Of a DNA stretch of 11,041 bases, positions 1 to 11,041 are shown one piece after another; the first letter of the stretch is position 1, and every line of letters starts with the position of its first letter. Made by a program: the position numbers and the translations under genes. The notes beneath the pieces were generated by a model. That model was not told the origin of the DNA and ran no database searches. It was given only the letters and a program-made list of their open reading frames with translations. Source of the stretch: Deltaproteobacteria bacterium RIFOXYA12_FULL_61_11 (GTDB taxonomy: Bacteria > Bdellovibrionota_F > JAHFAK01 > YA12-FULL-61-11); assembly GCA_001799195.1 (NCBI GenBank), contig MGSU01000116.1, positions 1 to 11,041 on the forward strand. Reading direction: 5' to 3'.

Positions 1-1160
1 AGAAGTACGGCAGCGTGCTGGCCGTGGCCGGCATCGGCGCGGCCGCTCTCGGTGGGATTTTCTTGCTCAAGAAACTGCGCGACAACCGCAGCGCAGGGCT
101 CAATTCCATGCTCTCCCCTCCGAGCACCCCGGGTAAATTGTCCCAGGTCTTGGACTACTTCACCGCTCGCGAAGAACGCAAACTGACGGTGGCGGAGAGA
201 GAGGCGCAGCGGGAGTTCCAGGCGCACGAGAATGCCGAGGACCGCAGTTTCAGCGACAAGAAGGACGATCGCCACAGTAAAACCGAGCTCGAACTTGCCA
301 AGCTGCAGGTTGGTGCGCCTGCTGGAGGACCTGGGTTGACCGGTACTCCGCACGACGGCACTGCCGATCCGAGCAGCGTCGGGAATGGTGGGCCGGGCGC
401 GAAGCCCGTGGTGGATTCCGCGCAGACGCAGACCCCCGGGGATGCACCCGCGACTACCCCCGGAGCCGAACTCGCGCAGACCCCGGGGCCCGCGCTCACG
501 CAGACCCCCGTGCCACCGCTGACGCTCGAACAGCGCGTGGCTTGTTTGGAGCAACAGGCAAGTGTCCACAATGCTGCCTTGCAGTTGCTCACCGCGGGGG
601 CCGCGGTCAACGCGGGAACTCCTCTCGCTGCCCCGATCATTGCGACAAAAGTCGATGATCCGGGAGAGGAACCGATGGTTCCGACCACTACTCCCATCAA
701 GAAAGATCCGCCCATCGCACCGATGGTGGAGCTTCGTGCGGGCAACCATGGAACTCAGCCCGACCCCATGACCGATCCGTTCGCAGGGCAGACGACGCCG
801 GTAGTTGCACAAAAACCCGTGGTACCTTCCCCTCCGCCGCCGACCTCGACCCCGGTCGTGGCTGCCCCTACCGGTTGGACTTCGGCCAAGGCCCAGGCCT
901 GGTCCAATTACCAAGCCCGCAACAACAGCGGGTGGTCCAAAGATCGTTGGTCGGCGAACTACGACCAGTTGGCAAGAGCCCGGTACCAACAGGGCGATTA
1001 CAAGACCTGGGCTCCGCAGCAACAACAAGCTTGGGACCGGTATATGAACGGAGGCGGAGGGCGCTACGGCAATTGGGAGAACGGCTTCGATCGCGACAAA
1101 TGGGCCGCCAACTATCAACAACTCACCGTTGCCAGGGCCGCGAGGGGACCGCATCCCTGA
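1..1160 (+). CDS. Unrecognised membrane-anchored protein with duplicated C-terminal Trp/Tyr module (5' partial)
   Basis: The frame is open to the left edge (codons KYGS precede the GTG at 15), so the true start is probably outside the window and the GTG need not be a start. Numbering from that GTG, a hydrophobic segment at residues 1-19 ends in the basic stretch KKLR, which suggests one membrane anchor. Residues 50-97 are highly charged and Glu/Arg/Lys-rich, probably helical or coiled coil. Residues 98-170 and 215-290 are Pro/Thr/Gly-rich linkers with repeated TQTPG/AQTPG units. The C-terminus (about 294-374) holds two copies of a Trp/Tyr-rich module. It ends in TGA. I do not recognise the family. 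The layout of anchor, linker and aromatic repeats suggests a surface or wall-binding protein, or a structural protein from a mobile element, but no such gene is visible nearby. Confidence 0.7.
   Translation, partial: KYGSVLAVAGIGAAALGGIFLLKKLRDNRSAGLNSMLSPPSTPGKLSQVLDYFTAREERKLTVAEREAQREFQAHENAEDRSFSDKKDDRHSKTELELAKLQVGAPAGGPGLTGTPHDGTADPSSVGNGGPGAKPVVDSAQTQTPGDAPATTPGAELAQTPGPALTQTPVPPLTLEQRVACLEQQASVHNAALQLLTAGAAVNAGTPLAAPIIATKVDDPGEEPMVPTTTPIKKDPPIAPMVELRAGNHGTQPDPMTDPFAGQTTPVVAQKPVVPSPPPPTSTPVVAAPTGWTSAKAQAWSNYQARNNSGWSKDRWSANYDQLARARYQQGDYKTWAPQQQQAWDRYMNGGGGRYGNWENGFDRDKWAANYQQLTVARAARGPHP
428..510 (+). repeat. Short direct repeats encoding QTPG units
   Basis: Three near-identical copies of GCAGACCCC(C)G(GGG) start at 428, 476 and 500 and encode QTPG/QTPV units in the Pro/Thr-rich linker. 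They look like small internal duplications in a low-complexity linker rather than a separate element. Confidence 0.6.
894..1136 (+). repeat. Two-copy protein module (QAWxxY ... D[RK]W[SA]ANYxQLxxAR)
   Basis: Copy A is at 894-983 (residues 294-323) and copy B at 1026-1136 (residues 338-374). Both begin QAWxxY and end with a D[RK]W[SA]ANY-x-QL-x2-AR block; copy B carries a Gly-rich insertion (NGGGG) between them. The protein match is clear while the DNA has diverged, so this is an old duplication kept at the protein level. Confidence 0.7.
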
Positions 1161-1237
1161 GCCGAACTCCTGCTCCCTCCGGAGCTCTCCTCCCCTGACT
1201 TCCCGCTTTACCTCGACGTGCTCGCAGTGATCTGCAA

Positions 1238-1253
1238 TACTCGCTGCAGAGTA
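1238..1253. other. Small inverted repeat in the intergenic region
   Basis: TACTC (1238-1242) and GAGTA (1249-1253) are separated by GCTGCA. No T-tract follows, so it is not a typical intrinsic terminator; it could be a protein-binding site or chance. The rest of 1161-1296 shows no convincing promoter or terminator. Confidence 0.25.
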
Positions 1254-1296
1254 CGCTCTCCCGCAGCGGCTCAGATGAGAAGGCACAAGCATTTTC

Positions 1297-2085
1297 ATGA
1301 CCTCAACTCCGGGTGATCTCCTGCTCCGACGCGTCCTCGGCATCCTCCTGGTGGGGCTGCTCGCAACCGTGCTCATCGGCTCTGCCGTGGGCCATCTCCC
1401 CGGCCCCGGTCTATTGCCCTCGGTGCGCGATACCCTGGCTCTCTTCGGGACCAATCCTGCCAGAGCGACGACGCATGGTGCCCTTGGCTGTGGGTTGCTG
1501 CTTTTCGGTTTCGTCTTGGCGTATTACCAAACTCGTTCTTTCTATCAATGGGTTCGTGGAGTTCGGCGACTGCGTAAGAGGGATATCTGGGGGAGTTGTC
1601 TCCACCTCGGTGTTCTGACGGTACTCGTGGGAGCCCTGCTCGATTCCTTGCTCGGGTACCATGGCACCTTGCTTCTGCGCGAGGGCGAAGGTGCCGGGCA
1701 TGTCTTCCAGTCCGGGGATCGGCCGTTGTCCCTCCCATTCCAAGTGCGCCTGGAGAAGGTCGAGCTCAAGTACCGCCAAGGGAGCGATATCGCCACGACC
1801 TTCCAGGCCCGGTTGCAGCTCTTTGCCCGAGGGTTCCGGCTCGCGGAAGTCGAGGTTGGCCTCAATGACCCGGTAGGAATCCTGGGGTGGAGCTTCATCG
1901 TCAATGATTACCACGAGCACGAGGTCAGCCCTGGTGAGGTAGCCTTCTCGCTTGGATTGACCCTGGCCCTCGAACCGGGCCGACCCTTCCTCGCTTTCGG
2001 TGGTGGGATGTTGGGCCTTGGATTGCTCGCGATGCTGTTCCTGCGTCGGTCTCGATCGAGTTGGAACTCCGAGTTGAGTACATGA
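1297..2085 (+). CDS. ResB-like cytochrome c biogenesis membrane protein (short form)
   Basis: This 262-residue protein has the ResB/CcsB pattern: three N-terminal membrane helices (about 12-32, 60-78, 99-119), a long presumably extracytoplasmic domain, and a final helix near 231-248 followed by basic residues. The HLGVLTVLVGALL helix followed by GYHGTLLLREGE (about 121-131) matches the ResB family, as does the later block of LPFQVRLEKVELKY type. In System II cytochrome c maturation, ResB works with CcsA to move heme and attach it to apocytochrome c. The protein is much shorter than classical ResB (400 residues or more), and no CcsA partner is in the window, so the precise role is inferred. 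The ATG at 1297 is preceded by GAGAAGG at 1277-1283. It ends 28 bases before engB. Confidence 0.75.
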   Translation: MTSTPGDLLLRRVLGILLVGLLATVLIGSAVGHLPGPGLLPSVRDTLALFGTNPARATTHGALGCGLLLFGFVLAYYQTRSFYQWVRGVRRLRKRDIWGSCLHLGVLTVLVGALLDSLLGYHGTLLLREGEGAGHVFQSGDRPLSLPFQVRLEKVELKYRQGSDIATTFQARLQLFARGFRLAEVEVGLNDPVGILGWSFIVNDYHEHEVSPGEVAFSLGLTLALEPGRPFLAFGGGMLGLGLLAMLFLRRSRSSWNSELST

Positions 2086-2113
2086 TCGGTAACCTTGGGA
2101 CGAGGAGGACACG

Positions 2114-2713
2114 GTGCGTTATGTCGAGATAACATTCCTCACCAGCGCTGCGCGGCCGGATCAGTTTTTGCCGGCCGATGTGCCGGAGGTCGCCTTTGCC
2201 GGACGTTCCAATGTGGGGAAGTCCTCCCTACTCAACAGTCTGGTCAATCGCAAGAATTTGGCCAGGACCGGTGCGCGGCCCGGTTTCACGACCCTGGTCA
2301 ATTTCTTCCTCGTCGAGGATCGCTTCCGGTTGGTGGATCTTCCGGGATATGGGTATGCCCGCCGCAGCAAGAGCGAGATTGCCGCGTGGCAGGGTTTGGT
2401 CGAGAGTTATCTCCATCGGCGAAGGAACTTGGCCTTGCTGGTCTGGTTGCTGGATTGTCGGAGAGATCCCGGACCGGAGGAATTGGCCTTCAGCGCCTGG
2501 TTGGCGGAGCGTGGGGTTCCCGTGAGACTGGTGTTGACGAAGGTGGACAAACTCTCTCGCAACGAGCTCTCCAAAGCCCTGGTCACCCGTTTCGCCGGTT
2601 GGCCTGCGCCTTTGCCCTGTTCGGTCAAGACCCGGCAGGGCATCGAAGAGTTATGGTCGACGATCGAGACCGCGGTCGCCGAACCGGCTGGGTTCTTACC
2701 GGAAGGCTCTTGA
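2114..2713 (+). CDS. engB: Ribosome biogenesis GTP-binding protein EngB/YsxC/YihA
   Basis: An essential GTPase in most bacteria, acting in assembly of the large ribosomal subunit in the cytoplasm. All main G motifs are visible: G1 GRSNVGKSS (30-38), G3 DLPGYGYA (75-82), G4 TKVDK (142-146) and a G5-like CSVKT (169-173). The usual PGRTQ of the G2 region reads PGFTT (56-60) here; the switch Thr is kept but the Arg and Gln are replaced. The length of 199 residues is normal. The start is GTG at 2114, preceded by GAGGAG at 2102-2107. It lies 28 bases after the ResB-like gene and 4 bases before the transporter gene, so the three are probably co-transcribed. The family assignment is firm. Confidence 0.95.
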   Translation: MRYVEITFLTSAARPDQFLPADVPEVAFAGRSNVGKSSLLNSLVNRKNLARTGARPGFTTLVNFFLVEDRFRLVDLPGYGYARRSKSEIAAWQGLVESYLHRRRNLALLVWLLDCRRDPGPEELAFSAWLAERGVPVRLVLTKVDKLSRNELSKALVTRFAGWPAPLPCSVKTRQGIEELWSTIETAVAEPAGFLPEGS

Positions 2714-2717
2714 CGGT

Positions 2718-3974
2718 ATGGCAGAGAACATCCGGGAACACCTCCGACGGCTCTTGTCGGTGCCGCCCGGGAAGGGAAAGCCTGTTTTCCTGTTCTGGCT
2801 CTATTTTTTCCTTGTCATTACTTCCTATTATCTTATCAAACCGGTACGCGACGGCCTGTTCCTCGAGCACCTCGGTAGCGGGATGTTGCCGTGGTTCTAC
2901 CTCCTCAACACGGGCCTTGGGTTGCTTGTCGTATGCCTGTACAACCAAGTGCGTCGCCGCATCAGGGCCGTACCCTTCATCCAAACCATTGGATGTGCCT
3001 TGATCCTGGTCTTCTTCGGTTTCCGGTTTCTGTTCGGAACGTTCCCTGCCTTGGCTGCCAGCCTTTTCCACAGTTGGGCCAGCGTCTACAACTTGGTGGT
3101 GGTCCTCATGTTCTGGTCCTTCGCGGATGATTTTTTTTCCCTCGACGAGGGGAAACGGTTCTTCGGGTTCATCGGTACCGGCGGTGTGCTTGGTGGGGTC
3201 GTCGGCGGCTGGCTGGCCGGGCTCCTCGCCGAAATCCTCGGCAGCGCTAACCTCTTGATCGTGAGCAGCGGAGTGCTGTTCCTCGGGTTGGTCGTGGTCC
3301 AGATCCTTGGCATGGCCGTCCCGTCCCGACGAGGAAAGGGCCTGGCCGATGACCAGGAAGGGGAACAGCTTGGGTCGGGTTTCGGCTTCGCCTCGCTGTA
3401 CCGGTCCCCGTACCTTCGTTTGATCGCAGTGGTGGTGACCCTGACCATGCTCTGTACGACCCTGCTCAATCTCCAGTTCAATCGAGGCGTCGAACTCGCC
3501 GGGTTCAATGGGGACGAGCTGACCTCGTTCTTCGGTTCGTTCTATGCCTGGATGAACGCGAGCGCTCTCGGCTTGCAAGTCCTGGTGGTGGGTCCGGTCA
3601 ACCGGCGGTTCGGTCCTTTACCGGGGCTCGCCGTCCTGCCGTTGATCTGCTTCGGGGTCTTCGCCGATGGGTTGTTCGCAGCGTCCTTCTCCGTCTTGGT
3701 CCTGGGCTATGGTGCAGCCCTGAGTGTACTGTACTCTCTCAACCAGTCGAGCCGGGAACTCTTGTTCATCCCCTTGGGCATCGAGGAAAAGTACCGGGCC
3801 AAGGCGTTCATCGATGTGGTCTTCTTCCGTCTGGGGGATTCGTTGGCCGCTTTGGCTCAGTTGCTGTTGGTGTCTACGGCGCTCTTCGGTGCGGCGGTGT
3901 TGCAGGTGTTGGGAATCCTTGTTTCGCTCGGATGGTTGATCACGTTGCGGGTCTTGCAGCGGCAAACCTCTTAA
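2718..3974 (+). CDS. NTT/Tlc-like (ADP/ATP carrier-type) major-facilitator transporter
   Basis: A polytopic membrane protein of 418 residues with about 11-12 hydrophobic segments. The N-terminus has a helix followed by YYLIKPVRDGLFL (37-49); a K/R-PVRD-x-L-F/L motif at this point is typical of the bacterial NTT/Tlc nucleotide-transporter family. The central hydrophilic loop (about 195-225, starting PSRRGKG) divides two halves. True ADP/ATP exchangers occur in intracellular bacteria and plastids. Free-living relatives are often somewhat shorter and of unproven substrate, so ATP/ADP exchange should not be assumed. The ATG at 2718 lies 4 bases after the engB stop, with GGAAGG at 2701-2706 inside engB. 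Its TAA stop overlaps the stop of the opposing polyprenyl synthase. Confidence 0.7.
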   Translation: MAENIREHLRRLLSVPPGKGKPVFLFWLYFFLVITSYYLIKPVRDGLFLEHLGSGMLPWFYLLNTGLGLLVVCLYNQVRRRIRAVPFIQTIGCALILVFFGFRFLFGTFPALAASLFHSWASVYNLVVVLMFWSFADDFFSLDEGKRFFGFIGTGGVLGGVVGGWLAGLLAEILGSANLLIVSSGVLFLGLVVVQILGMAVPSRRGKGLADDQEGEQLGSGFGFASLYRSPYLRLIAVVVTLTMLCTTLLNLQFNRGVELAGFNGDELTSFFGSFYAWMNASALGLQVLVVGPVNRRFGPLPGLAVLPLICFGVFADGLFAASFSVLVLGYGAALSVLYSLNQSSRELLFIPLGIEEKYRAKAFIDVVFFRLGDSLAALAQLLLVSTALFGAAVLQVLGILVSLGWLITLRVLQRQTS

Positions 3975-4816
3975 TGGGTTCGTGCATTCAGATAGTGCGC
4001 CAGAGCCTTCAACCGAGACGCGCGCTCTCCAAAACGGTCGAGGGCGGCGAGGGCATCCTCGAGACAATGTTCGGCGAGAGCCTTGGCCCGATCCGGGCCA
4101 TACAGTGCCGGGAAGGTGAGTTTGTCGCCTTCCTCGGGCCAGTCGAGCAGGTCGTCCCGGATTTGAAAGGCCAGGCCGATGCCTTCGCCGTACCGGGCCA
4201 GACCTACCAATCCGTCTTCCTCCAGGTCCCCGGCCAGCGCGCCGAGGAGCAAACTGCAACGGATGAGGAGGCCCGTCTTCTTGTGATGCATGGTCTCGAG
4301 GTAGGTTTGATGGTAATCCTCGGGGCGGACATTGAGGTCCATGGCCTGCCCGTCGAGTAGGCCTCGGGGACCGATCGTCTCGGCCAACTCTTTCAGGATG
4401 CGGAGTTGTTGCCGCGGGTCGAGCCCGGGCAGGGGGTCGGCGAGCAAGGCGAAGGGCTCGACGATCAGGGCGTCTCCCGCCAAGATGGCGTTGGCCTCTC
4501 CGAAGACGACGTGATTAGTCGGTTTGCCGCGGCGTTCGACGTCATCGTCCATGGCCGGCAGGTCATCATGGATGAGCGAGGCGGTGTGGATGCATTCGAG
4601 GGCCAGGGCGATGGGGAGCACCCTTTCGCGGGGAGCACCGGCAAGGTCCCCGGCCCACAGGGCGAGGATGGGCCGGATGCGTTTGCCGTCCAGGGCCAGG
4701 GAATAACAGCAGGCTTGACGGAAGGGTTCCGAGAGCTCGTCGAAACGGTGGAGCCGGTCAGCGAGATAGACGTTGAAGGCTTCGCGCTCCGCTGCCAGCA
4801 AGGTGCTGATGTTAAT
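3971..4816 (-). CDS. ispA: Short-chain polyprenyl (farnesyl/geranylgeranyl) diphosphate synthase
   Basis: It condenses isopentenyl diphosphate with allylic diphosphates in isoprenoid synthesis (cytoplasm, Mg-dependent). Numbering from the ATT start: GKRIRP (44-49), first Asp-rich motif DDLPAMDDD (84-92, the bacterial form with four intervening residues), RRGKPTN (95-101), GQAMDL (156-161), HKKTG (178-182) and second Asp-rich motif DDLLD (221-225). The length of 281 residues fits the family. An upstream in-frame GTG at 4852 would add 12 residues, but a strong AAAGGAGG (4821-4828) would then lie inside the gene. The N-terminus also lines up with family members at the ATT (4814-4816), so I place the start there. 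Five residues before the first Asp pair there is Ala79 where farnesyl synthases usually have Tyr, so a longer product such as geranylgeranyl diphosphate is possible. The ispA symbol is therefore tentative. Confidence 0.88.
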   Translation of the reverse strand: MNISTLLAAEREAFNVYLADRLHRFDELSEPFRQACCYSLALDGKRIRPILALWAGDLAGAPRERVLPIALALECIHTASLIHDDLPAMDDDVERRGKPTNHVVFGEANAILAGDALIVEPFALLADPLPGLDPRQQLRILKELAETIGPRGLLDGQAMDLNVRPEDYHQTYLETMHHKKTGLLIRCSLLLGALAGDLEEDGLVGLARYGEGIGLAFQIRDDLLDWPEEGDKLTFPALYGPDRAKALAEHCLEDALAALDRFGERASRLKALAHYLNARTH

Positions 4817-4820
4817 GGTC

Positions 4821-4828
4821 CCTCCTTT
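4821..4828 (-). promoter_or_regulatory. Shine-Dalgarno site that decides the polyprenyl synthase start
   Basis: On the minus strand this reads AAAGGAGG, close to a perfect anti-16S match. It sits 4 bases before an ATT codon (4816-4814). The nearest conventional starts in frame are GTG (4852), upstream of the site, and TTG (4801-4799), about 19 bases downstream and too far. Confidence 0.7.
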
Positions 4829-4864
4829 GGATGATGCACAGACACCCGGCACCTGCTTTCACCC

Positions 4865-4893
4865 TTGCCAAGGACGGCGCCATGCTCTACACT
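4865..4893 (+). promoter_or_regulatory. Predicted sigma70-type promoter for the HEAT/TPR-cvpA-Cys-rich operon
   Basis: TTGCCA (4865-4870; 5 of 6 to TTGACA), a 17-base spacer and TACACT (4888-4893; 4 of 6 to TATAAT) face the gene starting at 4953. Transcription would start near 4900, giving a leader of about 50 bases. The site lies in the divergent spacer between two opposite genes, where a promoter is expected. Confidence 0.55.
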
Positions 4894-4952
4894 CGGCGCT
4901 GGCTCGGCCGGAGGGGCTTCCGAGCGGCGGTGTCGGGAACAATGAGGGATAT

Positions 4953-5879
4953 ATGACGCGGGTCGAGAGGGTGTCAACGTCATTCTCGTACGCGCTCGGC
5001 CTCACTCTTCTTGGATATTTCCTGTTGGTACCCTCGAAGGTCGTTGCTCAGGAAGACGCTCGGACCTTGATCACGGTCGGGGTCAACAACGAGGTCGCCA
5101 CCAGGGTGACGGAGTTGTATCGGCTGGTCGAGACCGGCGACCAGACCGGCTTCGAACAGCTCAACCGGGCCTTGAAAGACCCGGCAGAACTCATCCGGTA
5201 CCATGCAGCCAAGATCATGGGTGGGCTCAAGACCATGCTCGCGGTGAAACCCCTGGCCAAGGTTGCCCTGCACGATGCGAGCTTCAAGGTCAGGATGCGC
5301 GGAGCGCAATCCCTCTACGAGCTCGGTATTGCCTCCTCCCTGGAGGTTCTCCACACCGCGCTCGAACTCGACAACCTGGGGAATAAACTCCTAGTCCTGC
5401 GCATCATCGAACAGATCCGGGACGAGCGTTCGGTCATGGTCTTGGAGAAGCAATTGCTCAAGACCGAACGGAGCGATTCGATCCTGCTCTTCCGCTTGCA
5501 ACGTGCCCTGGACATTCTCAAAGGAAGGCTCGACGGGAAACTCATCGAACGCGCCGAGCGGATTGTCGATGAAGCTCAAATCGCCTATCAGAACAATGAA
5601 GTCGCAAGGGTTAAACTGTTGGTCGATGAGGCCCTCGGCCTGGATAAGCACAATGCCAATGCCTACTTCCTCCTGGGCAATCTCTCCATGCATCTCGAGA
5701 AACAATACGAACAAGCCTTGAAGCAGTACCAATATGCCCAGAAATTCGGCTTCGAGGGTCAGGAGGAGATCAATTTCAATCTGGGTACCGCTCTGCTCTT
5801 CCTCGATCGGTTGCCCGAGGCCATCGAACACCTCGGGAGGGCCGCGGTCCTGGGGAGGAGCGCTAGGGCCTATTACTAG
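4953..5879 (+). CDS. Exported HEAT/TPR-repeat protein, cut by an in-frame TAG
   Basis: The ATG at 4953 has GAGGG at 4944-4948; longer in-frame starts upstream would overlap the opposite gene and the promoter and would bury the signal peptide. Residues 1-31 look like a Sec signal peptide: basic start, hydrophobic core GLTLLGYFLLV, likely cleavage after VVA before QED. Residues 45-195 form HEAT-like helical repeats (for example DPAELIRYHAAKIMGGL and DASFKVRMRGAQSLYELG). From about 200 on there are TPRs (NANAYFLLGNLSMHLEKQYEQAL; INFNLGTALLFLDRLPEAIEHLGRA). It probably acts as a periplasmic or lipid-facing scaffold; no enzymatic motif is seen. The gene stops at TAG (5877-5879) after 308 residues, in the middle of a TPR, although the same frame continues as good TPR sequence to 6056. 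It could be a recent pseudogene, a read-through gene or a sequence error. Confidence 0.8.
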   Translation: MTRVERVSTSFSYALGLTLLGYFLLVPSKVVAQEDARTLITVGVNNEVATRVTELYRLVETGDQTGFEQLNRALKDPAELIRYHAAKIMGGLKTMLAVKPLAKVALHDASFKVRMRGAQSLYELGIASSLEVLHTALELDNLGNKLLVLRIIEQIRDERSVMVLEKQLLKTERSDSILLFRLQRALDILKGRLDGKLIERAERIVDEAQIAYQNNEVARVKLLVDEALGLDKHNANAYFLLGNLSMHLEKQYEQALKQYQYAQKFGFEGQEEINFNLGTALLFLDRLPEAIEHLGRAAVLGRSARAYY

Positions 5880-6056
5880 CAAGCGGTAGCCTACTTCAAG
5901 GCAAAGGATCTTGGTCGAGCGATCCAGTGCTTCGAAGCAGCCCTGACCATCGATCCTGAGTTCCGCGACGCCCACTGTAATCTCGCCCAGCTCTACGAGT
6001 CCACCGGCGCGGCCGACAAGGCGTTGCAGCACCGCACCCTGTGCGGTATCCAGTAG
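5880..6056 (+). pseudogene. C-terminal TPR remainder of the same gene, beyond the TAG
   Basis: These 58 codons follow the TAG in the same frame and end in a second TAG (6054-6056). They encode QAVAYFKAKDLGRAIQCFEA and then a repeat starting AHCNLAQLYESTGAADKAL. Together with AYY before the TAG they complete a perfect 34-residue TPR, then begin another. No ATG, GTG or TTG with a Shine-Dalgarno site lies near the beginning, so this is not a separate gene. Product exists only if the TAG is read through or is a sequence error. Confidence 0.7.
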
Positions 6057-6065
6057 GGGGCTACG

Positions 6066-6785
6066 GTGTGGTTCGACCTCTCCCTGGCAGGCGTGGTGCT
6101 TCTCCTGGCGCTGCTCGGTTATTTCCAAGGGGCCTTCCGCCAGATCTTCTCCATGGCCGGATTGATCCTGGCAGTGCTCTTCGGAGGTCGCTTGGCCGCA
6201 CTCGCCCTTGGTCTCCTCGAGCTCGAGCCGGTCTCCCCCATGATGAGAACGATAGCGGGTTTCATCGCCGGGACCTTTCTCTATATCAGTTGCCGATTCA
6301 TTATCTATGCCTTGGATCGCACCCTCTTGCGGGACAATGAACTCGTCCGGCGAGGTAATCGCCAGTTCGGAGCCTTCATCGGCGGCCTCAAGGGTCTGGT
6401 AGTGGCCGGAGTACTCGGCTTCCTGCTGGCCATGGCCGTGCGGGAAGGGGTGCCCTGGGTCAGGGCGAGGGAGGTCTTCTACAAGGAATCGCTGGGTCTG
6501 CGGGTTGTCCGGGATTCGGGGCTATTGGTCGAGTTCAATCACCGTGGAGTGCTGCGGAAGTTGCAGCGACTGATTGAACAACGGTCCTCGCAGGGCGTGA
6601 AGCCCGAGGTTACCGAGTTACGTAAGGTGCTCAGTCCCGAAACCATGACCAGGTTGCTCAGTCCGGAGGTCTTGAGCGGAAGCGCCGAGCTCCCGCTCGA
6701 CGAACAGGCCCTGATCGAGGATCTCTATCGGGACCCGGCGATACGAGAACTTATTCTCCAGCAAGCATCAGGAGGGAAACCATGA
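6066..6785 (+). CDS. CvpA-family inner-membrane protein
   Basis: A 239-residue protein with four N-terminal hydrophobic segments in the CvpA pattern (about 4-24, 27-50, 59-80 and 105-125). It has the family's cytoplasmic-side block RRGNRQFGAFIGGLKGLV (about 95-112) and a soluble C-terminal tail of roughly 110 residues. CvpA proteins are needed for colicin V production in E. coli and for envelope homeostasis more broadly; the biochemical role is unknown. The start GTG at 6066 is preceded by GGGGG at 6056-6060. It lies 9 bases after the second TAG of the HEAT/TPR gene and in the same frame. Its TGA overlaps the ATG of the next gene, which indicates translational coupling. Confidence 0.8.
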   Translation: MWFDLSLAGVVLLLALLGYFQGAFRQIFSMAGLILAVLFGGRLAALALGLLELEPVSPMMRTIAGFIAGTFLYISCRFIIYALDRTLLRDNELVRRGNRQFGAFIGGLKGLVVAGVLGFLLAMAVREGVPWVRAREVFYKESLGLRVVRDSGLLVEFNHRGVLRKLQRLIEQRSSQGVKPEVTELRKVLSPETMTRLLSPEVLSGSAELPLDEQALIEDLYRDPAIRELILQQASGGKP

Positions 6786-7087
6786 TCGTCGACGAGGGCT
6801 TCTACTGTTACAAATGCAAGAAAGAAGTGTTGATGGAGGTGCGCATTACCCGTTTCGACACCTGTGATTTCTGCGGGGTCGATCTTCGGGTGTGTTTCAA
6901 CTGTCGCTTCCACGACCTGTCCTATCCCAACGAGTGTCGGGAAATCGGCACGGCGTATGTTCGCGAGAGGGATCGAGGCAACTTCTGCGCTTCGTTCGAG
7001 TTCGCCAAGGGCAAGGACCGGCTGTCCGGGGCCGAGGTGGCCAAGGACGAGGTAAAGAGCAAATTAGATGCCTTGTTCAAGAAATGA
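6782..7087 (+). CDS. Small eight-cysteine putative zinc-binding protein
   Basis: A 101-residue cytoplasmic protein with Cys pairs at C9/C12, C28/C31 and C38/C41, plus single C52 and C69. The order CYKC ... DTCDFCGVDL ... VCFNCRFHD ... NECRE ... NFCASF resembles a conserved uncharacterised bacterial family, usually of form DxCPxCGxDLxxCxNCxFYD ... NFCDYF. The CxxC pairs suggest one or two structural zinc sites. The C-terminal 25 residues are charged and helical. The ATG overlaps the cvpA stop (ATGA at 6782-6785), with AGGAGGG at 6770-6776, so it is co-translated with the CvpA-like gene. No function is known to me. Confidence 0.8.
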   Translation: MIVDEGFYCYKCKKEVLMEVRITRFDTCDFCGVDLRVCFNCRFHDLSYPNECREIGTAYVRERDRGNFCASFEFAKGKDRLSGAEVAKDEVKSKLDALFKK

Positions 7088-7109
7088 AGAGAGCGTCCTC
7101 CCACCGGGG

Positions 7110-7242
7110 CAGGAGTGACAGCAGGGATGCTGACCTCCAAGTGACGCGGTGTGCACAGGGATGTGCGCCTCCAGGCGGGCCGCAGGAAGCAGGACCGTCG
7201 GGCAGGATGCAGCGGCATCGGGGTGACATGAGGTGTCATGTC
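7110..7242 (+). promoter_or_regulatory. Possible CsrA/RsmA-binding leader or small RNA (GGA-motif array)
   Basis: The spacer 7088-7326 has no coding pattern, but six CAGG(G)A motifs fall within about 100 bases, with GGA at 7112, 7125, 7159, 7185, 7192 and 7205. The site at 7155-7164 reads ACAGGGATGT and matches the published CsrA consensus core ACARGGAUGU at every position. At least two motifs sit in the loop of a small hairpin. A further stem GACATG/CATGTC (7225-7230, 7237-7242) closes the region. It could be the 5' leader of the S1 gene or a CsrB/RsmZ-like RNA. No clear promoter or strong terminator is seen, so the boundaries are guesses. Confidence 0.4.
7119..7166 (+). repeat. Two tandem hairpins with GGGA loops, 34-base period
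   Basis: Hairpin 1 is CAGCA-GGGA-TGCTG (7119-7132). Hairpin 2 is GCACA-GGGA-TGTGC (7153-7166). The shared loop context AGGGATG recurs 34 bases apart, and a CCTCCA (7134-7139 and 7168-7173) follows each at the same distance. The stems differ in sequence but both pair fully, as expected if the RNA fold is conserved. Confidence 0.5.
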
Positions 7243-7245
7243 GGG

Positions 7246-7259
7246 GCGTTAGACGCTTT
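7246..7259 (+). terminator. Weak terminator-like hairpin
   Basis: GCGT-TAG-ACGC (7246-7256) is followed by only three T. The stem is four base pairs, too weak for a confident intrinsic terminator, but it lies where an RNA from the GGA array could end. The adjacent TTGTC-TT-GACAA (7263-7274) is another small palindrome. Confidence 0.2.
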
Positions 7260-7326
7260 GAATTGTCTTGACAACCTAGGGAGGGTGTGGTGAGAACGGT
7301 TGGTCCGAAACGGGGAGCGTTAAGGC

Positions 7327-8673
7327 ATGGAAGCGAACGAATTGAAGGTCGCACCGGACGGGTCCATGGTGCAGGACAGGGAAGTCAATGCTGGGGATAT
7401 CGCTGTTCCCGCTCCGGAGCCGATTTCGGAGCAGGCAGGTGTGACCGAGGAGAGAGCTGTTGAGGCTGCTCCAGAACCTCGCGAGGGCACGAGCAAGGTC
7501 AGAGCGCAGCGCAGCAGTGATATCACCCACCTCAAAGAAGCTCAGGAACAGGGAAAGCTGGTCGAGGGGTATGTCGAGACGAGGAACAAGGGTGGGTACG
7601 AAGTACGGGTCGGCAACCTCAAGGCTTTCTGCCCCTTCAGCCTTATGGATGACCACTACTACGATGACAAGGACAAATTCCTCGCCCAGAACCTCTCGTT
7701 CCGCGTAGCCGAGGTCAACGAGAAGAAGCAACGCGTACTCCTGTCGCGACGCGATGCCATGCGTGAAGGGAAGCAAGGCCGGTTGCGCGATCTGGAAATA
7801 TTGTTCCAGGAAGGGCATCCCCTGCTCGGTAAGGTGACGAAGCTCGAGGATTTCGGCGCCTTCATCGATCTCGGTGGTGGGGTCGAAGGCTTACTGCACG
7901 TGTCCGAGATCAGCCACTCCCGGGTCGAGAAACCGAGCGAAGTGCTGCGGCCGGGGGATGAGTTCGAGGTCAAGATCATCAACATCAAGACCGACGAGAA
8001 GGGGACGAGGATCTCGCTCTCGCGCAAGGTGCTCGAACAGGATCTCTGGGCAGGGCGCCTCCCCTTCGAAGAAGGGCAAGTCGTCACCGGCAAAGTGGTC
8101 AAGGACGAGAAGTACGGCGCCTTCGTCGAACTCCTGCCCGGGCTCGACGGACTGATCCACATCAGCGAACTCAGCGACAAGAGGGTCAACCGCGTCGAGG
8201 ACGTGGTCACCGTCGGGCAAGAGGTCGAGGCCAAGATCATCAAGATAGACCACGACCGGAAGCGCATCAGTCTCTCGATCCGAGAGATGCTCCAGGACAA
8301 GAACCTCGGGGCGGAACACGGCTCGTTCGCTCCGAAGGCCATCAAGATTGGTGAGCGCTATCTCGCCATCGTGGACAACGTCAAACAGAACGGCGTGTTC
8401 GTGAAGCTGCCCGAGGTAGGTCGCGATGCCTATGGGTTCGTACCCTACGAGGAGCTCAATATCGAACGGGGCAAAGACCTGCACAAAGAATGTCCCAAGG
8501 GGACGACTCTCAACGTCGAGCTGGTTTCTCGCGACGAGCGAGGACGGAATCGTCTCTCGGTCAAGAGTATGCACGAGCGCGAAGCCCAGAACGAGTACCA
8601 ACAGTATTTGCAGAAACTCAATCAGGGCGGAGGCACGGTGACCCTGGGGGACTTGTTCCCGAAGAAATCCTGA
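7327..8673 (+). CDS. Four-S1-domain RNA-binding protein (ribosomal protein S1-like)
   Basis: A 448-residue protein. Residues 1-70 are a Glu/Ala/Pro-rich, probably disordered extension. Four S1 (OB-fold) domains follow at about 77-142, 163-232, 251-320 and 343-416. Domains 2 and 3 are canonical: G-x-VT-x-GAF(I/V)-x-L ... GL(L/I)H(V/I)SE(I/L)S. Domain 1 (GYVETRNKGGYEVRVGNLKA) resembles the ribosome-side first domain of S1 proteins; domain 4 is the most diverged. Ribosomal S1 helps mRNA bind the 30S subunit; shorter four-domain members such as this may be ribosomal S1 itself or a general RNA-binding regulator. A TAA lies two codons upstream in frame, so the ATG at 7327 is secure. GGGGAG (7312-7317) is the likely Shine-Dalgarno site. 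It follows the GGA-motif leader. Confidence 0.88.
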   Translation: MEANELKVAPDGSMVQDREVNAGDIAVPAPEPISEQAGVTEERAVEAAPEPREGTSKVRAQRSSDITHLKEAQEQGKLVEGYVETRNKGGYEVRVGNLKAFCPFSLMDDHYYDDKDKFLAQNLSFRVAEVNEKKQRVLLSRRDAMREGKQGRLRDLEILFQEGHPLLGKVTKLEDFGAFIDLGGGVEGLLHVSEISHSRVEKPSEVLRPGDEFEVKIINIKTDEKGTRISLSRKVLEQDLWAGRLPFEEGQVVTGKVVKDEKYGAFVELLPGLDGLIHISELSDKRVNRVEDVVTVGQEVEAKIIKIDHDRKRISLSIREMLQDKNLGAEHGSFAPKAIKIGERYLAIVDNVKQNGVFVKLPEVGRDAYGFVPYEELNIERGKDLHKECPKGTTLNVELVSRDERGRNRLSVKSMHEREAQNEYQQYLQKLNQGGGTVTLGDLFPKKS

Positions 8674-8714
8674 GACCCGTGGTTCTCTCCCTCCTCCTGA
8701 CCCTCATCTAGCTA

Positions 8715-8727
8715 TCGAGGTCCTCGA
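8715..8727 (+). promoter_or_regulatory. Inverted repeat around the Shine-Dalgarno site of the Memo gene
   Basis: TCGAGG-T-CCTCGA lies directly before the ATG at 8728 and contains the only visible Shine-Dalgarno sequence (GAGG, 8717-8720). As RNA, a short stem with a five-base loop could hide the site; as DNA, it could be an operator. It may also be chance in a GC-rich genome where TCGAGG is common. Confidence 0.3.
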
Positions 8728-10215
8728 ATGCGCTGGATCATAGTTATCGTTCTGGTCTGCGGTGGGGCCCAGCTTGCAGCTGAGGATCTCTTCCGTTCCC
8801 CCTTTGCCGGAACCTGGTATTCCAAGGATGGGGAACAACTCCGGACAACGTTGACCGCGCTGCTCAAAGCCGCACCGCGAGCTGAACTTTTGTCGGCACC
8901 GAACGTAGTGCTCGTGCCGCACTCGGCCTATCCGTTCGCCGGGGGAGTTGCCGCGGCCGGTTTCCGCCTCCTCGAGGGACGCTCCTACGATCGCATTGTC
9001 ATCCTGGCTCCGAACCACGAGGGGCGAGGCCGGCGCATCGCAATGCTCGATGCCGACGGATACGAGACTCCTCTGGGAGTCCAACCCCTAGATCGAAAAG
9101 CCATCTCGACCCTTGCCGGGGATCCCCTCTTCGTGCGGGACAGGATTCCCTTCACCACCGATCATGGCGTTGATCTCCAGGTGCCCTGGTTGCGGTTGCT
9201 CGCGCCCTCGGCCAAGCTGGTGCCCCTCTTGTGCGAAGGTCTCCGGTTGTCGGATCTCGTAAAGGTCGGGAACGGGTTGCGAAAAGTGTTGGGCAATTCG
9301 ACGCTCCTGGTGGTTTCCTCGGATCTGACCCATTATGGCGAACGCTTCGGGTATCAACCGTTTCCCGGAGAAACGGCACGTCAACTCGTCACCAAGATCT
9401 CGGAACTCGATAAAGAAGTGTTGCGCCTTGTCGTCGCGCGGGATCTGCCCGGCTTGATCCAACACGTCTCGGCAAGTCGCCTGACCGTCTGTGGGGTCTT
9501 CCCGCTCGCCGTCGCGCTCGAGCTCGTCGCTGCTGAAGGACTCTCCGGAGCAGTGCTCGCCTACGACACTTCCTCGACCACGACCGGAGATTATTCGACG
9601 GTGGTCGGGTACGGTGCTGCGGCCCTGACGGCCCCCTGGAGCAAAGCCGTGGTCGAGACCGAGAACGCCGAAGCCGGAGAGGAATTACTACGGTTGGCAA
9701 AGGATGCCTTGCGCACCGGGTTGCGAGGGAGCGGTGAATTGCGGCTTTCGCGGTATCGACTCGGCACGCGCGCCAAGAGTTTCGGTGGGGTGTTCGTCAT
9801 CGTCTTCGAGGGCGAGCGGGTGGTGGATTCTCGCGGCACGGTGGCCGAGATAACGCCTGTGTACCAGACGGTATTGGATGCGATCAACGAATTGGTAAGA
9901 TTGCCCGGGATCAAAGAACTGGCAGCGGACGAGAAGCGTTATGCAAAAACCCGGGTCGGGGTCGTATTGGTCGGAGAGGTCTTCCGGTTGGTGACCGAGG
10001 TCGAGCTCGATCCCCGCGTCGAAGGCATCTATCTCTCCTCTCGGGACGGAATCCAGGTCCTACTCCCCTTCGAAGCCGTCCAGCGGCAACTCGATGCTCC
10101 CCGTTTCCTCGATGCCTTGTGCGGAAAAGCCGGGCTCCTCGAGAAATGTTGGCGGGATACCGGTCGGCAGGTCTTCCGCTTCCGCACCCAACAGTATCTC
10201 GAACCTCTCCGCTGA
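8728..10215 (+). CDS. Exported Memo-AMMECR1 fusion (AmmeMemoRadiSam proteins B and A)
   Basis: A 495-residue protein. Residues 1-18 look like a Sec signal peptide (MRWIIVIVLVCGGAQLAA, then EDLF). The Memo domain (about 22-300) shows the family's site residues: VPH at 63-65, NH at 96-97, SSDLTHYG at 197-204 and Cys255 in TVCGVFP; these correspond to the His/His/Cys metal-site positions of human MEMO1. An AMMECR1 domain follows (about 316-493), ending with SSRDGIQVLLP, FLDALCGKAGL and a CW ... VFRF block. The family's most conserved AMMECR1 motif, LRGCIGT, is replaced by VVDSRGT (365-371). Fused A-B proteins are known, and they usually work with a radical SAM partner, which is not in this window. 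The substrate is unknown. ATG at 8728, GAGG at 8717-8720. Confidence 0.85.
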   Translation: MRWIIVIVLVCGGAQLAAEDLFRSPFAGTWYSKDGEQLRTTLTALLKAAPRAELLSAPNVVLVPHSAYPFAGGVAAAGFRLLEGRSYDRIVILAPNHEGRGRRIAMLDADGYETPLGVQPLDRKAISTLAGDPLFVRDRIPFTTDHGVDLQVPWLRLLAPSAKLVPLLCEGLRLSDLVKVGNGLRKVLGNSTLLVVSSDLTHYGERFGYQPFPGETARQLVTKISELDKEVLRLVVARDLPGLIQHVSASRLTVCGVFPLAVALELVAAEGLSGAVLAYDTSSTTTGDYSTVVGYGAAALTAPWSKAVVETENAEAGEELLRLAKDALRTGLRGSGELRLSRYRLGTRAKSFGGVFVIVFEGERVVDSRGTVAEITPVYQTVLDAINELVRLPGIKELAADEKRYAKTRVGVVLVGEVFRLVTEVELDPRVEGIYLSSRDGIQVLLPFEAVQRQLDAPRFLDALCGKAGLLEKCWRDTGRQVFRFRTQQYLEPLR

Positions 10216-10224
10216 GACGTACAT

Positions 10225-11041
10225 TCAGAGCTTCAGGTTGCCGCGACCATCGGTCGTGAAGGCAAGGAACCCGGGAGGGACTGCCGGTACCTCGGCCGCG
10301 TGCTTCCGGTGCCGCTGTACCATGGTCTCGGGCAAGAATACCTGCCGCAACCGTTGACGTTTGGGAGCGTCGCCTGCCGAAAGGGTCAGGGAACGAAGTC
10401 CACCTTCCTCGACAATGGCCTCGAGCCGGTGTCCCCCGGGCAGGGTCCGGTGGTAGTCGAGACGCGGTAGAGCTCCCCGACCGAGTGGGGTGATCAACGT
10501 GTCGCCGATACGACGGCAGAACAGGTGTTCGAAGGCCAAGAGCACCAGACTCGACGCACAGAGGTCCCATCGGGGAGAGAGAAGACGGCCCCCGAGGGCT
10601 GAAGTTTCCGAACCCAACGTGCGTTCGTGGTCGGGGGCGAAGGAGTGGAGGAGGTGGCCAAGGATGTCGGCACTCCCGGTCCAGGCGAGCACCAAGGAGG
10701 TCCAGGCATACGCTTGGGAGGTGGAGAGCAGGGAGGCGAGAATGGTCGTAGTTGAGGGGAGGACCTCTGCCATGAGGGAGAGAAGGGTCGGCGGCACCGC
10801 GGGTTGAGCGGGAACCGGTCCGAAGGGTGGAGCCGCGAGTAACAAGATGCGCGCGTCGGAGTCCCGCAGGTTGGACCACCAGGCTTCAATACCGTGGGGT
10901 GGGGGGCCGAGCCGTTGTTCGAGGTCTGCGAGTTCTCGACGACCGAGGTGTTTTGCCCTGAGACTGAGGAGGTAGGTCCGGGCTTCGAGTTGCCCCAGGC
11001 AGCGGGCAAGAACGCTCGGATCACGATGTGAGGCGAGGCCG
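10225..11041 (-). CDS. Unrecognised protein, 5' end beyond the right edge
   Basis: The minus-strand frame is open from the TGA at 10225-10227 to the window edge, about 271 codons. The N-terminal visible part is rich in Leu/Arg/Glu (for example SLRAKHLGRRELADLEQRLG) and helical. There is then an ILLLAAPPFGP strand-like segment and a Leu/Ser/Ala/Trp-rich helical stretch containing SQAYAWTSLVLAWTG. The last 90 residues are probably beta-rich (LITPLGRGALPRLDYHRTLPG; LEAIVEEGGLRSLTLSAG). I do not recognise the family, and no catalytic motif stands out. The gene faces the Memo-AMMECR1 gene tail to tail with a 9-base gap. An internal TTG at 10845 need not be a start. Codon usage in this frame looks coding (frequent CTC, GAC, CGG), but confidence in the reading frame is moderate. 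Confidence 0.55.
   Translation of the reverse strand, partial: GLASHRDPSVLARCLGQLEARTYLLSLRAKHLGRRELADLEQRLGPPPHGIEAWWSNLRDSDARILLLAAPPFGPVPAQPAVPPTLLSLMAEVLPSTTTILASLLSTSQAYAWTSLVLAWTGSADILGHLLHSFAPDHERTLGSETSALGGRLLSPRWDLCASSLVLLAFEHLFCRRIGDTLITPLGRGALPRLDYHRTLPGGHRLEAIVEEGGLRSLTLSAGDAPKRQRLRQVFLPETMVQRHRKHAAEVPAVPPGFLAFTTDGRGNLKL

Follow-up and report, generated by a model that had tools for sequence, protein, structure and literature searches.

Two kinds of described system come closest to a gene with a stop codon inside an otherwise conserved frame. In a young pseudogene, or where a wrong base has entered the consensus of a metagenome-assembled genome (MAG), one premature stop is present, the frame and the homology persist before and after it, there is no partner machinery and the case occurs singly; the locus described here shares all of these features and differs in none. 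In UAG recoding, either by pyrrolysine or by reassignment with loss of release factor 1 (RF1), an in-frame UAG likewise stands in a conserved frame, and RF1 was not seen in the present assembly either; the locus differs, however, in that no PylS over the cut-off and no tRNA(CUA) accompany it and TAG is a normal terminator.

The window, that is, the whole stretch of DNA that was analyzed, comprises 11,041 nucleotides of Deltaproteobacteria bacterium RIFOXYA12_FULL_61_11 (contig MGSU01000116.1, positions 1 to 11,041). We consider it very likely that it carries an isolated premature amber codon that interrupts an exported HEAT/TPR gene intact in all other respects, the codon being due to a recent nonsense mutation or to an erroneous base in the consensus of the metagenome. 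The reading frame from the ATG at 4953 on the forward strand is open for 308 codons up to the TAG at 5877-5879 and, as an earlier reading of the sequence alone had stated, continues past it, remaining open for exactly 58 sense codons until a second TAG closes the tail just ahead of the next gene (Table 1). In this tightly packed operon, the 58-codon tail spans the interval that leads up to the CvpA-like gene, whose GTG begins nine bases past the second TAG; an AGGGGG motif at 6055-6060, five bases upstream of that GTG, could serve as its ribosome site. The tail contains no in-frame ATG or GTG and a single TTG near its end, and thus offers no obvious restart.

Table 1. Features of the interrupted TPR gene and its downstream neighbor (window coordinates).
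Feature	Position	Strand	Basis
N-terminal 308 codons, exported HEAT/TPR protein	4953..5876	+	signal-peptide-like N terminus (by eye), HEAT repeats, then TPR-like repeats
In-frame TAG at TPR position 6, premature relative to the probable ancestral gene	5877..5879	+	Pfam match, orthologue alignment
58 further TPR-coding codons, same frame	5880..6053	+	Pfam match, codon composition
Natural end of the TPR gene, TAG	6054..6056	+	frame reading
CvpA-like (Colicin_V) membrane protein, next gene, same frame, own GTG start	6066..6785	+	domain match

Elsewhere in the window, positions 8728-10215 encode a 495-aa protein that has a signal-peptide-like start and fuses a Memo-like (AmmeMemoRadiSam B) domain to an AMMECR1 (AmmeMemoRadiSam A) domain. 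Adjoining engB, positions 2718-3974 encode a distant relative of the TLC-type ATP/ADP transporters, with a Pfam score of 80 bits; its NCBIfam score is no more than 62 bits, where the cut-off is 387.

Some 43-52% of all stops in this genome precede 40 open codons, so that the openness of the frame by itself means little. With X substituted for the TAG, however, Pfam TPR_1 matches residues 304-337 across it with an E-value of 1.7e-14, and the truncated protein that ends at the TAG gives no TPR_1 hit at all. The interrupted repeat is the best-scoring TPR of the protein, and the stop falls at its position 6 (W4-L7-G8-Y11 numbering, with the match beginning at residue 304), not at position 4, where it had been placed. 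The codon log-odds of the tail amount to 15.1 over 58 codons (0.26 per codon), compared with 95 over the 308 upstream codons (0.31 per codon), and the other two forward frames at the tail are strongly negative. Judged by composition and profile match, the continuation past the TAG is truly coding and not a chance open frame. No second lesion was seen in the gene, which is compatible with recency without proving it and fits a nonsense mutation and a base error alike.

The window's genome stands apart: among the 59 relatives searched, G001 was the only one of its class, and it yielded the sole orthologue found, a protein of 393 aa with 26% identity. Because the gene order around it is unlike that of the window, the orthology call is based on the shared domain layout and the full-length alignment. 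The alignment, a comparison that the earlier reading had proposed, runs through the site, with Arg where the TAG stands, followed by the remaining repeat. Two scans of genome contigs found no closer relative of the gene, although one locus in the wider contig collection encodes the same 393-aa protein as G001; the gene had no match in phage records. Arg at the site and the continuing alignment of the orthologue, together with the coding tail, indicate a longer ancestral gene, one that most likely ran through the TAG site.

A longer ancestral frame bearing a single lesion is thus what was found, in agreement with a nonsense mutation or a base error. Given that the tail occupies the space before the next gene and has retained its coding composition, the loss appears to be either recent or not real: the lesion would be a nonsense mutation, probably recent, in the sampled population, or else a base error in the assembly. 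If the TAG is real, translation would stop after residue 308 of 367, and one to two TPR repeats would be lost from the C-terminal end; termination in vivo would presumably be performed by RF1, provided that the organism encodes it, as at its other TAG codons. Counting against an ordinary lesion is that RF1 was not found in the assembly while the class-level relative possesses it, an observation that would fit reassignment.

Stop codon usage bears directly on this point. Gene calls by codon usage covered 1.97 Mb (about 42%) of the 4.64 Mb assembly and comprised 1561 genes, ending in TGA (1206), TAA (203), or TAG (152, about 10%). TAG, which the earlier reading had called rare as a stop, is the least used of the three yet a regular one, and it is also the final stop of this very gene (6054-6056), which had been overlooked. 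Coding-like extensions past the stop were found by one measure for 11 of 152 TAG (7%), 9 of 203 TAA (4%), and 57 of 1206 TGA (5%) ends, and by a second measure for 8%, 12%, and 8%, respectively; rates this similar do not distinguish TAG from the other stops. Where other TAGs inspected seemed to continue most strongly, the sequence beyond them proved to be the next gene, with its own start. Under a filter for clear continuation (no start codon in the next 20 codons, together with a coding signal above all other frames by a set margin), the window's gene was the only one of the 152 TAG-ended genes in the 1.97 Mb to pass, and one TGA case passed as well. In conserved genes that end in TAG, the match to the family profile extends to the end (TrkA, 447/450; RodA, 370/373; AccC, 441/445; PPi-dependent phosphofructokinase, PPi-PFK, 420/426), and the profiles of an NtrC-type regulator and a GlpT/UhpC-type transporter likewise end just before the TAG. 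From these natural C termini and the regular usage, TAG is an ordinary terminator in this organism.

The decoding machinery was searched for as the sequence-only reading had suggested. A family search located RF2 in the window's assembly (C263:27342-28364) and found no RF1 (prfA) over the cut-off in this 87%-complete assembly; RF1 is present in G001 and nine others. Considering the normal use of TAG and the incompleteness of the assembly, RF1 most likely sits in the 13% of the genome that the assembly lacks. None of the 36 tRNA genes of the whole 87%-complete assembly carries the anticodon CUA, and no PylS exceeded the cut-off, the best match, a stray one, scoring 19.7 bits against 178. PrmC, the release-factor methyltransferase, falls below the cut-off in both genomes of the class and may be divergent or replaced there. 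A shared absence of PrmC with RF1 might have proved a gap in the assembly, but this argument was dropped, because G001 has RF1 and yet its PrmC is below the cut-off too.

Programmed or leaky read-through of the TAG, by which the TPR protein would come in two lengths, is very unlikely. The tail is undamaged and keeps the frame, and the codon that follows the TAG is CAA, which occurs after the stop in some viral leaky contexts; nevertheless, the tRNA genes found in the assembly include no suppressor, the RNA beyond the TAG folds no more stably than shuffled versions of it (z-score -0.01), and no other such TAG case occurs in the 1.97 Mb. Conservation of both stop and tail, the mark of a programmed event, was not observed, the sole relative having no stop at the site, although with a single distant relative this is a weak test. 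We see equally little likelihood that the species now has the short form as its fixed, normal protein, with the tail as a decaying remnant: the signal peptide, the HEAT repeats, and most of the TPR-like repeats precede the TAG, but the TAG interrupts the best-scoring TPR, and the tail keeps its coding composition and its homology to the relative. It is highly improbable that near-cognate tRNAs read the TAG at a low level to give a minor long form of the exported TPR scaffold that performs a distinct function. Genome-wide reassignment of TAG to an amino acid after RF1 loss, which the detection of RF2 and not RF1 in the assembly would favor, is exceedingly improbable given that about 10% of the called genes end in TAG, the conserved ones at natural C termini, that the strongest continuations after other TAGs are separate genes, and that no tRNA(CUA) was found in the assembly.

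Of the options originally listed for this codon, a fresh nonsense mutation or a sequence error fits, whereas suppression, reassignment, and read-through are disfavored by a TAG that ends ordinary genes at their natural ends and by the lack of a suppressor tRNA(CUA) among the tRNA genes found; a controlled short and long form gains no support from tRNA(CUA), PylS, RNA structure, or a stop in the relative. The codon most likely reflects such an ordinary change and no novel form of control. As a caution, a reading frame that stays intact on both sides of a single stop does not establish recoding, even where RF1 has not been found in the assembly; the stops used at the natural ends of conserved genes, the tRNA complement, and the singularity of this case speak strongly in favor of an ordinary lesion.
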